Made by a program: the position numbers and the translations under genes. The notes beneath the pieces are model-generated. The model did no database searches, had not been told where the DNA came from, and saw only the letters and a program-made list of their open reading frames with translations. From contig JAQGDQ010000081.1 of assembly GCA_030141605.1 (NCBI GenBank), positions 130,001-194,000 of the forward strand: a DNA stretch of 64,000 bases, in the 5' to 3' direction. How positions within the stretch are numbered: the stretch's first letter is position 1; each line of letters opens with the position of its first letter. Below are positions 3,201 through 9,200 of this stretch, in pieces. Source of the DNA: Tubiluchus corallicola. Its lineage: Eukaryota; Priapulida; Priapulimorpha; Priapulimorphida; Tubiluchidae.

Positions 3201-6200
3201 GCAGAATCGTTAAAGACTTCCAGAAAAAATAATTCAAACAAGACTAGCCAAACAATGCCTGTTGTTAACGATGGCGGAAATAAGACTAGCAACAAAGATA
3301 AAGGAAAGTTTACTGAATAGTCATAACTGACATCACTTGAGTAATGCTTTGACACTGATGATGACTATTTGATATTACAATTGCAGGCTCAGAGGCTTCA
3401 GTGTGTGGAGGTAATAGATTTCTTTGTGACAACGGAAGATGTCTGGACAAGGAGCTATTTCACAATGGTATTGATGATTGCGGAGATGGTTCAGATGAGG
3501 GTACATTCTTCAATTATCCTCTATTGTGAAATGCACCACAGTCATGAATTCAATTCATTTTTATGATGTTCAGGCATTTCTGTACTGTAAGTGTAACATT
3601 AATATAAAGAATATAGACAAATCTATAATTTGTGAATATTTTTTTAACATTTCAGCTTGTTTACGATGGGAATACACTTGTCCAGCTGGTCACTGCATTA
3701 CAGCTGATGTGTTTCTAACTAAGGGATGTGTTTTGGATGATCGAACGCCGCCTGCAATCATACAGAATACTAATCCGTTTCCAACTTCCTTAACGATTGT
3801 TTTATCAAATGACGATGACGAACACAGAGCAACTGAAGGTGAAACAACTGCATCATCTCACAGCAACGAAAATCAGACTAATAATGACGATAAAATTACC
3901 TCAGTGGATGCAAGTAAACCACTAGTTAAAAATACTCAAAATGAATCAGAATTCAAAAGCAGTGACAGTAACATCACAAGCAAAGATGCTTATGATGAAA
4001 TTGAGGCTTCTGTCAATAAGGACATGACAAACAGCCATGAATCTTGCATACAAAATGATAGAAGAAAGTGTTTTAACGCGTCATCCGAAAAAGACAAAAT
4101 ATCTGCTTCTGAAGAAAACTCAGAGGCAAAGACAGTAAAAACTAAGAAAACACCTGACCTACACACCAACGAAAGTAGTTTAATAACAAATCCAAGTCAT
4201 GACATTAAGAACAAGACACACAGAGAAGGAAAGCAGTCACAGCAACAGTCCACTAATACAACATTAGTGACTGATCTGGAAAATGGAAATATGTCATTGG
4301 CGGCTGATCATGAAAAAGAAATTTCTACTGTTGAAAACAATCAGGAAACTCTAACAGGCATATCCATAGCAAATGATGTCGATGTTGACAGCAATAGTAG
4401 CAGATATAACAGCGGTATTGTAAAAGAAATCACAGAGAAAAAGAATACTAGTACCAGCAATGAGACAGCAGAAAATATTCATGACAGTGACAAAGAATTA
4501 AGTTCAAGTTTGAGTGGACAAAAAGATGAAAAGCCCGACAGCAAACTGTCACAGAACGTTCACACAACCACAGAAATGCTTGGCATAGATTTTATGGTAA
4601 CTGAAGAAATTGTTAAAACATTAAACAGCAAAAATCTTACAACTGATGCTATTCCTCTAAACCTAACAAGTGATAAAAAACCAAAAGAAGACAATGCGAA
4701 ATCTACAGACAAACAAAATCTACACACGCAACATGAAAGTGAATTAAGCAAAAGTGACAGAACTGGCAGTACTAACACACAGTCAATGCAAAATGCGAAA
4801 AATGAGTCTGCCAATGATAGCTACTATATGAACAGTACTAAAAATGGCAGAAGCAGTGATGATGCATCTACACAAGCACCCAAAGAAGGAAGTAAAATAC
4901 AATCTGACGTCAAACAACAGCAAGAACATGCTCACAAAGAAAGTGACTTGGGGATAACTGAAACCAAAACCAGCAATGGTACATTATCCATAGAAAGTAC
5001 AGAAATGGAGCCTACTGATTACATTCAGCATAACAACAGCAAAACAAATCATGGATATAATGAATTCTTGATTTCAGATGAACAAAATACTACAAGTTGG
5101 CCAGACCATACAAGCATAAGGGATTTTGAAATGTCCAAAAATAGCAATGGCAAGATACCAGCTAATGGCACTAATAGCAGTGGTGAAAATGAAAGCAGTG
5201 CAAACAATACTAATTTGATATCTGCTAGCAAAGCAAATGTGACTGATTCTATGCAACATAATGGCAAATTTGATATAACTGGAACACAGCAAAGCATTTT
5301 GGCAAATGCTGGGCAAACTACAGATAATGCATCTAGCACAAGTAAACTCCACCAAGGAACAAACAATGGAAGGCCAAATAAAGAAGAAATGTTGAAACAA
5401 AATAAACCTAATTCAAATAACAAAGACAATATTTCCAATAAAACTACAAATGGTCAAACTGAACGTAAAAGTAATTCTACCCAAGAAGAAATTAATGAGC
5501 ACCAAAAGAGTGATTCTGTTGGAAATACAAGCATGAGTAACTCAGCCTCAGCTGGAAAGCTGGGAAGTAATAGAACAGAATATACTGAAAATGAGATGAA
5601 TGGTAGTGAAGAAGATCCTGGAAAAGTGATAAATAATCACACTAATAATGGCTCCAATGGCAACAATGGCAAAGAGAGTGGCTCTTCCACAGAAAAAACA
5701 AAAACTGATGAGCTGACACAAGATGTGGTGTCTAACAATCATTCAAATGATTATAACTTTAACAACATTAGCAGTAGGGCAGACAGCTCACTTCACCTCA
5801 TAGCAAAAAGTGAAGGAAATGACAGTAAAATGTTGGGGAAAGAAATGCAACTCAACAATGGAGAAGGAAATACAAGTCCTACGTTGCAAAATGAGGAAAC
5901 AACAACAATAGGCAACAAAAACAATAATGCAAGTGCAACAGGCACAGCTCAAGCTAGTTCTACAGGAAAAAAACAGGGAAGTACTGAATTAGAAGAAAGT
6001 GACAGAGAACAAGAAGAAAAGCATCCTTCATCAAAGCACAGTGATGGATTGAATTCAATCGTAAATAAAACACAAAATGGACAGGCTAAATCAAACTATG
6101 GAAAAATCACCTGTAAAGAACAAGAAGGCAAAAAGTGCCCACTGAGCAATCAAAACAGAACTGAAATCACTTTTCAAACTGGTTCAACTGCTCCAGGCAT

Positions 6201-9200
6201 GATTTCATACTCTAATGAATCAATTTCAAAGCCTGCTGCAGATGTAGTAAAGAATTTTGAAGGTGAAGAAGGAATGCAGACAGTATTTCCAAGAATATCT
6301 ACAGAAGAACTTGTAACGGAAACACCTGCTGACACTACACAGCCGCAGGGAAAACAGGGAAGTTACAAGGATTTACACGTAACAACTGAATACATTTCAG
6401 TTGCTGAGATGACAACAGTGGAATCATATATTTTTTCAATGACTGATGCCGATATTCTTGCATCAGATGAAGGGACTGATAAGCCAAGCAATGATGTGGC
6501 AGAACAAAACACAGGGAAACAAAGAACAACAGTAACAGGCAGTGAACTGGAAAATAATTTTTACGCACTAGCTGGCACGCTGTCAATGTCTCCTGATGAT
6601 TTAGGTGGATCTACAGAAATGAATCAAGCTGCAGATGGTAATGATGTAACTTCCGCGGAGCATGCTAATAAACAAGGACAAGAAAAAGAATGCATTGCTG
6701 AAGGAAAATGCACAAGTGCAACTCCAAGTGACACTGTCACTGGATTCACTAATCCTGGAAATATTGATGACATGACAGGTAGTCCTAATAACAAGAGCCA
6801 GATGGATAGTGATGAAGGTAATATTGCTGATGAATCAAGTGGTAGTCATTTTCAATCTGCTGCTACATCTAGGATACTCAACAACAAAGATTCACTGGAA
6901 CTTAAACTTACAAAGGAAACTACAATTGGCACTGATGATTATGGAACATCACAGGCATCACAGACATTTTCAGGCAGCCCAGAAAAGAATACAAATATAG
7001 ACAAGAATGAAAGTATGAGTAATACAAAGCAAAATCCTGAGCAGTCTCATAATACTAGTGCAGCAAAATGTGTAGGCAAAAGCAAACACTGTAATGAAAA
7101 TGAAATGAAAAATTTAACAATAGTACATCCGGGGAAGCAGACCCAGAACAATAAAACAAGTACATATATCCCTATAGACTCACAAACTAATCCAGCAAAG
7201 AAACCTGATGAATTGTCTGTACAAAATAAAAATAAAACCAATATTCGACCTGGAGTACAAAATAGCAACAAAACCAAGAAACAGCATGGAGATGACCTTA
7301 ATGACAAGCAAAACAATAAAACGAGCATAGATGTCCCAAAAGAGTCACAAGTTAATGCTACAAAGATGCCTGATGGAGTGCCTGTAGATCATAATAATAA
7401 GACCAACATTCGACCTGGTATACAAAATAACAACACAACCACGAAGCAGCATGGAGGTGGCCTTAATGACAAGCAAAACAATAAACTGAGTACAGATGTC
7501 CCAACTGAGTCACAAGCAAACGCTACAAAGATGTCTGATGAAGTGCCTAGAGAAAACAAGAATAAGACCAATATTCGACCTGGTATACAAAATAACAACA
7601 CAACCGCGAAGCAGCAAGGAGGTGGCCTGAATGACAAGCAAAACAATAAACTGAGTACAGATGTCCCAACTGAGTCACAAGCAAATGCTACAAAGATGCT
7701 TGATGAAGTGCCTAGAGAAAACAAGAATAAGACCAATATTCGACCTGGTATACAAAATAACAACGTAACCACGAAGCAGCAAGGAGATGGCCTGAATGAC
7801 AATAAAATGAGTACAGATGTCCCAATAGAGTCAGAAGCTAATGCTACAAAGATGCCTGATGAAGTGACTAGAGAAAACAAGAATAAGACCAACATTCGAC
7901 CAGGTATACAGAATAACAATGCAACCACTAAGCCGTATGGAAGTGGCCTTAATGACAATTTTCCAAAACACATGGTGTGTGACGGTAAAGATTTTGTCAG
8001 CGCAATAAAAGCAGCACAGCCAACTTTATGCAATGCTACTGATAAAGACAGCTGTGGGGCAACTTCCGGAAAAGTATGTGCCGAGGCAGGACCTGGTCAA
8101 GGAAGGCATCACTGCCAGTGTCCAAAAGGCTACACTACCAACAACAGAGACACCTGTGAAAGTAAGTTTTAATAACAGCCCTTTTGTAATAAGCTGATTA
8201 TACAAGTAATATAAAGTAACAACGCTGGTTTTTCGTAATTTATTAGTCTAATCAGGAACAACTTTAACACACTGGAATGGCAGCAAAATGAACTCATTAT
8301 GAGAGATCGCTTTCATATTATATTGAAAAAAATTGTACACAAGTTTATTTCTGGTTATCTGCACATTAAAATGTAGCAGTAATAATGACATTATTTTCTA
8401 AATTTAATTGCTGTTCTCCTGTTCTGGTTAGGAAAATAAATTGTATATTGTTAAGGCTGAAGAAACACAACAAAAACCAACAATAGATCATATAGTATTT
8501 ATGAATGTATTATACTATTATTAACTTCATGCACAGGAAATGTGTTGTTCCGAATACAGTTTCGAATGTTGGAATTCTGCGGAGAAAAACTGGAACATAG
8601 TCAATCTCTTGAAAATGTACACAACGAGGAGTTCAACAACTTGCAAAAACTGACAGCTTTTGGGGTGAGTACATGTTTAGATGCAAAATAAAACTTTTTA
8701 TGGTGTGCTTTGCAAGAATCTGAGAACAAATTTTTCATATGGCAAACAACTGTCATAGAAATCTTTTCCATTTATATTTTTAAGGTTGCAAGCTTAACAG
8801 CCAATGTGAAAGATATTTCAGAGATCTACCATGGGATGAACGTTGAGAGCTTTCTTCCTGGCAGTATTATCACTAAAGGATTTATAAGATTTTCAGCCAG
8901 CTCTGACATCACTGCAAGTGAAGTCCAACAACAACTAGCTGCAGCTTTACGTGATTCTGGTAACATGTTAGGAGATAGCAGATTGAAACTGGATAATGGA
9001 GGCATCATCGTCTTAGGTAAGTGGTTATCAGCACTCCGTCAACTCATGTCTTGTCATAAATGCTATTGCGATATTTTATTTATATGTGCTTTAGCACATG
9101 TTTATTGATGTATGAATCGACTGCTTATATATGCTGTGCTGCAAGGGTATTTTGGTGTTGCATGTGCTGTTACTGATGTGGCAGACATGTTTTGCATGTA

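Follow-up and report, generated by a model that had tools for sequence, protein, structure and literature searches.

What kind of protein is encoded by an exon of about 4.5 kb, most of which is low-complexity sequence lodged between small cysteine-rich modules? The question is raised by a locus in the priapulid Tubiluchus corallicola (assembly GCA_030141605.1, contig JAQGDQ010000081.1), within a stretch of 64,000 nucleotides (nt; positions 130,001 to 194,000, forward strand) that was analysed as a whole and is called the window here. The exon in question, referred to as the giant exon, lies at 3656-8161 on the forward strand of the window. With a probability of roughly 0.6, we read its gene as coding for a large type I membrane glycoprotein, comparable in function to a SEA-type surface mucin, in which a disordered, glycosylated stalk would hold LDLa modules outward as spacer or tip.

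The giant exon comprises 4506 nt without a stop codon, is in phase 1 at both ends and is bordered by the acceptor tttttaacatttcag and the donor gtaagttt (AG/GT). The surrounding open frame runs from stop to stop over 3499-8172 and spans 1557 codons. A chance open frame was rejected, as dinucleotide shuffles of the giant exon (200 trials) produced no forward frame beyond 157 codons. The exon contains six full segments of 750 nt, and in all of them A/G prevail at codon position 1 and A at position 2, whereas position 3 resembles the non-coding composition of the window. Because this codon-position composition holds in every segment, the giant exon looks like coding sequence along its whole length, and we regard it as a real exon. 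We also rejected a division into small pieces, which the lack of an in-exon stop and the coding composition throughout make improbable. An earlier reading of the bare sequence (the original prediction) had proposed a single exon of about 4.5 kb with some 1,500 open codons, and its borders match ours exactly, with frame and AG/GT sites confirmed.

Nine exons between 3387 and 13043 join in frame to 2168 codons with the sole stop at the very end, and their borders are canonical AG/GT and mostly of phase 1. Two further exons upstream (210-332 and 2372-2518) hold another LDLa-type module, which stays below the Pfam cut-off and whose sixth cysteine probably comes from the second of the two. From the N- to the C-terminus, the order is LDLa module 1, a linker, LDLa module 2, which passes directly into a degenerate four-cysteine LDLa, the stalk, an EGF module, a SEA-like module, another EGF module, a linker, a helix and a tail (Table 1). 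LDLa module 2, extended into the first part of the giant exon, scored 37.6 bits with Pfam LDLa (E-value 2.5e-9, two stretches, cut-off 24.1). For EGF, the spliced piece reached 28.7 bits in total against a cut-off of 21.5 (two stretches, E-value 1.6e-6); the best stretch is the EGF after the SEA-like module, from which most of the EGF evidence comes. The helix has a 19-residue hydropathy of 3.78, the highest of the model, with the next best value elsewhere at 1.05. No start codon or signal peptide was identified in the window, because the gene apparently extends beyond its first base. The window appears to hold the 3' part of the gene with the 5' end outside, so the module order given here is that of the 3' part. 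The original prediction was silent on the membrane helix, the tail, the five tandem repeats and the cysteine pairs described below, as well as on an N-terminus beyond the window.

If expressed as modelled, the protein would carry a disordered, hydrophilic stalk of about 1400 residues on a folded, membrane-near EGF-SEA-EGF block. N-glycans would sit at part of the 63 N-x-S/T sequons of the stalk and O-glycans at some of its Ser/Thr residues. Such a stalk would keep the LDLa modules off the cell surface and form a spacer or tip in the glycocalyx. A nick at G-S may turn the SEA-like module into a break point that allows stalk shedding, and the tail of 382 residues would anchor or signal inside the cell. 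This mucin-like plan is supported by the in-frame nine-exon model, the LDLa and EGF matches above their cut-offs, the strong helix, the sequon excess, the sequons kept among the repeats and a motif in register with MUC1.

The composition of the stalk agrees with the original prediction of a sequence dominated by Asn, Ser, Thr, Lys, Glu and Asp and not rich in proline. These six residues contribute 12.7, 11.8, 11.1, 8.8, 8.1 and 6.6 %, together 59 %, and proline 3.5 % (n = 1397). The 63 sequons compare with 39.1 (standard deviation (sd) 5.2) in plain shuffles, none of which reached the observed number (0 of 5000, z 4.6). Dipeptide-preserving shuffles gave 39.5 and local shuffles over 40 residues 38.2, again with no shuffle reaching 63 (0 of 2000 each). 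Without the tandem repeats, 45 sequons stand against about 31 (reached in 6, 2 and 9 of 2000 for the three shuffle types, z about 3), and the repeat part alone holds 18 where 7.0 are expected. Taken over the entire stalk, it is N-x-T that accounts for the excess (38 vs 18.8), and S/T-x-N, the motif read backwards, occurs less often than expected (24 vs 39.0). Both this depletion and an excess that withstands all shuffles would fit selection for sequons.

In one part of the stalk, a 55-codon unit is repeated five times in tandem. Each unit offers three sequon positions, which are present in 4, 5 and 5 of the five copies (14 of 15 places); the third keeps its Asn and Thr in every copy, with K, T, T, V and A as middle residue. 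Of the six columns that make up the sequons only one varies, compared with 6 of the 9 remaining Asn/Thr columns and 27 of all 50 columns, and the ratio of nonsynonymous to synonymous substitution rates (dN/dS) lies between 0.29 and 0.70 in 8 of 10 pairs of copies. The retention of sequons among the repeats is suggestive only. Outside the repeats, a BLASTP self-comparison of the remaining 1126 stalk residues (E-value up to 10) found no internal duplication. All eight cysteines of the stalk fall into four pairs with 5-7 residues between the partners. Pairing within 8 residues occurred in 1 of 200000 random placements, in a test devised after the pattern was noticed. The pairs may form small disulfide loops.

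The assignment of a SEA module is based on an F-x-P-G-S-I-I motif, a weak alignment to MUC1 and the position in the protein, and the module is therefore called SEA-like. Local alignment of its second exon with the MUC1 SEA fragment scored 36, a value attained by 64 of 5000 shuffles, for which 23.1 is expected, and it includes a nine-residue gap; control pieces from the EGF and the tail were at chance level (2943 and 3208 of 5000). The F-x-P-G-S-I-I segment is in register with FRPGSVV of MUC1, and the chains of the MUC1 SEA fragment in the PDB stop at FRPG and begin at SVVV. The autoproteolytic motif has been given as GSxxV, with V or I at x (PMC9478142), and alternatively as G/S[V/I]VV (PMC10687090); here and below, papers are cited for excerpts of their text. 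A cut at G-S in the SEA-like module is possible, not implied. A fold predicted for the second exon without an alignment was of unusable quality (mean pLDDT 46.6), and in phmmer searches of the SEA and the EGF-SEA-EGF pieces against the PDB no hit was better than a Notch EGF (E-value 0.06).

Several results weigh against a mucin-like protein with a glycosylated stalk. Pfam SEA had no match to the exons at 8537-9016, and the best profile over this region was InlK_D2, below its cut-off (E-values of 0.0022, 0.034 and 0.23 for three sequence cuts). The motif reads G-S-I-I-T and fits GSxxV at four of five positions, with Thr as the last. The first EGF alone stays below the Pfam cut-off. The predicted position of the stalk between LDLa and EGF/SEA modules was borne out for LDLa and EGF, with SEA left unmatched by Pfam. 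Among the repeats, the comparison of sequon columns with other Asn/Thr columns yielded a P of only 0.06, and the two remaining pairs of copies had a dN/dS of 1.1 and 3.4. Taken by itself, N-x-S shows no significant excess across the stalk as a whole (25 vs 20.2, reached by 712 of 5000 shuffles), and the distribution is patchy, with one sequon in stalk residues 800-900 and none in 900-1000. Motifs of no known meaning also depart from expectation (N-x-D/E z -2.6, D-x-S/T z -2.4, N-x-K/R z +2.4); because they deviate by 2 to 3 sd, the shuffles are an imperfect null. The cytoplasmic tail contains 8 sequons in 382 residues against 4.0, 5.0 and 3.8 (56, 172 and 29 of 2000 shuffles). Its first 190 residues, a cut picked after viewing the sequence and with an excess stronger than that of the whole tail, hold 7 against 2.8, 2.5 and 2.7 (19, 4 and 11 of 2000), which is 3.7 per 100 residues compared to 4.5 in the stalk. 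Since this tail follows the membrane helix, it is not expected to come into contact with the enzymes of N-glycosylation. The sequon excess is real but not confined to the extracellular side, and it may reflect sequence texture instead of selection. Because the tail shows a similar excess, the sequon count alone cannot prove an N-glycan stalk: the predicted richness in N-x-S/T holds against shuffled controls (63 vs about 39), but the N-glycan stalk derived from it is weaker than claimed.

These points bear directly on the idea that the stalk is a fast-evolving disordered linker whose sequons follow from Asn/Ser/Thr-rich, AT-rich codons, with any glycosylation being incidental. The excess in the tail, the two 100-residue stretches with 1 and 0 sequons, the deviating tripeptide motifs and the background-like third codon positions of the giant exon would all be expected from such a linker. 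It is harder to reconcile with an excess that persists under dipeptide-preserving and local shuffles, with the depletion of the reversed motif and with 14 of 15 sequons kept among the repeats, and we consider it unlikely. Lower still we place a receptor for attachment to cuticle or matrix, in which LDLa and EGF modules would bind the matrix, the stalk would bridge the gap and the tail would bind the cytoskeleton. The 382-residue tail would fit an attachment receptor of this kind, and the nematode proteins MUA-3 and MUP-4, which it would resemble, contain SEA and LDLa modules. However, no von Willebrand A (VWA) domain was found in the modelled exons (the 5' part of the gene lies outside the window), and the EGF_Mua-3 profile gave an E-value of 6.6 only. 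MUA-3 and MUP-4 resemble our protein as transmembrane proteins of large size, for which a role in joining cuticle and epidermis in Caenorhabditis elegans has been proposed (PMC11304992). They differ from it in being Matrilin-like, with VWA and EGF.

A proteoglycan-like matrix protein of the IMPG2 type, with a glycosaminoglycan-bearing stalk and an ectodomain freed into the matrix by SEA cleavage, is very unlikely. IMPG2 does have SEA and EGF modules, a membrane helix and a cytoplasmic region (PMC10558372), comparable to the EGF and SEA-like modules, helix and tail described here, and it is proteolysed to a membrane and an extracellular part, predictedly at SEA-2 (PMC9478142). Ser-Gly is not enriched in our stalk, which disfavours a proteoglycan: 7 such dipeptides compare with 10.0 expected and 3 acidic ones with 5.6, both below expectation and neither significantly so. 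In addition, IMPG2 has two SEA modules and tandem EGFs, whereas a single SEA-like module with flanking EGFs is seen here (the upstream part being outside the window), and no LDLa is named for IMPG2 in the cited excerpts.

The preferred reading, a protein working like a membrane mucin, can be compared with named families. EGF modules stand on both sides of SEA in MUC3, MUC12, MUC13 and MUC17 (phrase searches of the literature gave nothing usable on this arrangement). As far as excerpts of the literature tell, these SEA-type membrane mucins share with our protein a long stalk from one large exon and, near the membrane, an EGF beside SEA or the SEA-like module, a helix and a cytoplasmic tail. Stalk, SEA, EGF-like modules, helix and tail are the parts listed for transmembrane mucins (PMC9080433). 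The stalk of earlier-described mucins lies in one large exon, with chicken Muc13 as the exception (PMC1552070), and the stalk exon of MUC3A measures 15.9 kb (PMC9578598). Membrane mucins receive N-glycans in the endoplasmic reticulum, are cut in SEA and are then O-glycosylated (PMC9578598). The statement in the original prediction that no named family has this order was therefore too strong, since a stalk exon with EGF/SEA, membrane segment and tail is the published transmembrane mucin plan (PMC1552070, PMC9080433, PMC9578598). Our protein departs from this plan in its distal LDLa modules and its low proline content.

Our protein also differs from SEA-type membrane mucins in several respects. 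Compared with the known appearance of a class I PDZ motif, the C-terminus EEPPS is no PDZ-type motif. In the MUC3 cluster, by contrast, a class I PDZ motif is found at the C-terminus (PMC9578598), and the cytoplasmic tail of membrane mucins is shorter than 100 residues (PMC11985918), against 382 here. A proline/threonine/serine (PTS) domain is defined by S+T >= 20 % and P >= 5 % (as quoted in PMC2515642). With 22.9 % S+T and 3.5 % P, the whole stalk lies below the proline threshold; both thresholds are reached in 104 of 1298 windows of 100 residues, 176 of 1338 of 60 residues and 15 of 1248 of 150 residues. GSIIT in place of an exact GSxxV and LDLa modules at the far side of the stalk are further differences. 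Owing to the low proline content, the inexact GSxxV and the long tail, the protein is not filed as a member of the membrane mucins; on our reading it works like one. A search of the literature, covering titles and openings of abstracts and few subscription papers, did not name the layout.

Relatives in plan are also found outside vertebrates. The mucin1-like and mucin4-like candidates of the sea anemone Actinia tenebrosa are non-vertebrate transmembrane mucin candidates with signal peptide, PTS-rich low-complexity regions, SEA and helix, and some mucin4-like ones have SEA or additional N-terminal CUB, ZP and FN3 domains (PMC9080433). Their low-complexity regions differ in being PTS-rich, and in the main text of that paper 'LDL' is absent and EGF occurs once. 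The non-vertebrate setting is not new, because SEA-bearing mucin-like membrane proteins have been published from this sea anemone (PMC9080433). The Mur proteins of Drosophila resemble the stalk as high-S/T repeat proteins, classed separately for short or proline-less repeats in the excerpt seen (PMC2515642). ADGRG4/GPR112, for which a role as shear sensor has been proposed, is described in excerpts as having a very long glycosylated mucin-like stalk, a tip module and a membrane-near SEA-like domain without the exact cleavage motif; it differs as a seven-helix receptor with a pentraxin-like tip, compared to one helix and LDLa here.

A bolder version of the mucin-like reading, which we regard as improbable, is that the place of the proline/O-glycan stalk is taken by Asn-rich repeats that carry N-glycans and are braced by small disulfide loops, and that LDLa forms the tip, making the protein the membrane-mucin equivalent of a non-vertebrate lineage. 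Its novelty would be the N-glycan chemistry of the stalk and the LDLa tip. If the sequons are truly glycosylated, a mucin-like brush can arise from a proline-poor, N-glycan-bearing repeat exon, and mucin finders that demand 5 % proline would overlook such proteins. If they are not, the stalk amounts to a long low-complexity linker of an ordinary kind, and the case warns that counts of sequons should be checked against a cytoplasmic region.

Table 1. Exons, modules and repeats of the gene around the giant exon (positions in the window)
Feature	Positions	Strand	Evidence and remarks
LDLa-type module 1 exon (CPRWWFTCDNGRC...CVNDCGDYSDE)	210..332	+	AG/GT, phase 1; Pfam LDLa 17.7 bits in open frame, 10 in spliced piece, both below cut-off 24.1
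Exon carrying on LDLa 1 (GEEEFRRNC...) and linker	2372..2518	+	AG/GT, phase 1-1; no other domain found
LDLa module 2 exon (SEASVCGGNRFLCDNGRCLDKELFHNGIDDCGDGSDE)	3387..3500	+	AG/GT, phase 1-1
Giant exon, comprising a degenerate four-Cys LDLa, the stalk and the first EGF	3656..8161	+	Open frame, AG/GT, phase 1-1, codon-position composition
Low-complexity stalk, 1397 residues, 63 sequons, 22.9 % S+T, 3.5 % P	3766..7956	+	Composition and sequon counts
Stalk Cys pair 1 (CIQNDRRKC)	4045..4071	+	Sequence
Stalk Cys pair 2 (CKEQEGKKC)	6112..6138	+	Sequence
Stalk Cys pair 3 (CIAEGKC)	6691..6711	+	Sequence
Stalk Cys pair 4 (CVGKSKHC)	7069..7092	+	Sequence
165-bp (55-codon) unit, repeated five times in tandem; one copy is shorter by three codons	7147..7958	+	TRF 5.0 copies, 85 % matches
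EGF-like module 1, one extra Cys ahead (CDGKDF...CNATDKDSCGATSGKVC...CQCPKGYTTNNRDTCE)	7957..8161	+	Six-Cys pattern by eye; Pfam cEGF 13.1 bits alone, 23.4 against cut-off 26.6 in 324-residue spliced piece with best stretch here
SEA-like module, exon 1	8537..8664	+	AG/GT, phase 1-0; no Pfam SEA match
SEA-like module, exon 2, contains FLPGSIITKGFIRF	8785..9016	+	Phase 0-1; weak MUC1 SEA alignment, no Pfam SEA match
EGF module 2 exon	9493..9645	+	AG/GT, phase 1-1; Pfam EGF 21.5 bits in open frame, equal to cut-off
Linker exon	10195..10282	+	Phase 1-2; in-frame join in nine-exon model, borders from sequence
Short juxtamembrane exon, two Cys (CDGIELGDSC)	11068..11114	+	In nine-exon model
Transmembrane helix exon (ATAVVILIVFCLLLLLCLIIFLIYYCYKKCR)	11393..11483	+	Hydropathy
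Cytoplasmic tail exon, 382 residues, stop 13041-13043, ends EEPPS	11894..13043	+	Nine-exon model; no Pfam family at E-value up to 1

Some observations on the gene stand apart from this argument. Upstream of LDLa module 2, the region 3184-3320 is an exon-like, Asn/Ser/Thr-rich piece with an acceptor that ends in TAG. It was dropped as an additional coding exon, as no usable phase-1 GT donor was noticed and it ends in TAG; it may represent a short, secreted 3' end used as an alternative. The sub-threshold similarity to InlK_D2 falls in the second SEA-like exon, 8785-9016. The tail exon is S/T-rich and has a strongly basic stretch (RSRRRQRHGHGKHKH) in the second half of the tail.

An Rfam scan of the entire window at gathering scores gave 0 matches, and a scan of viral contigs gave one match to a pattern stretch and no relative. 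Elsewhere in the window, an UNC-93/MFS-type exon lies on the minus strand at 19694-20029 (Pfam UNC-93, 1.4e-13), and a 395-codon open frame at 33208-34395 without a Pfam match resembles the mTERF type by eye only. Two exons on the minus strand (36131-36418 and 39991-40251) match eukaryotic RPL10 in the PDB, the second with 46 of 51 residues to the best chain as counted by eye; the closest entries are probably those of fly and vertebrate, nearly equal to each other. As RPL10 hardly varies among vertebrates, these matches mark the window as animal DNA that is probably not of vertebrate origin. A PX-domain exon was found at 57337-57606 (Pfam, 3.1e-8), which together with 51605-52582 we take to be possibly a sorting nexin gene. 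Finally, the window contains two perfect microsatellites, (AAT)34 at 2087-2187 and (AT)38 at 56981-57056.

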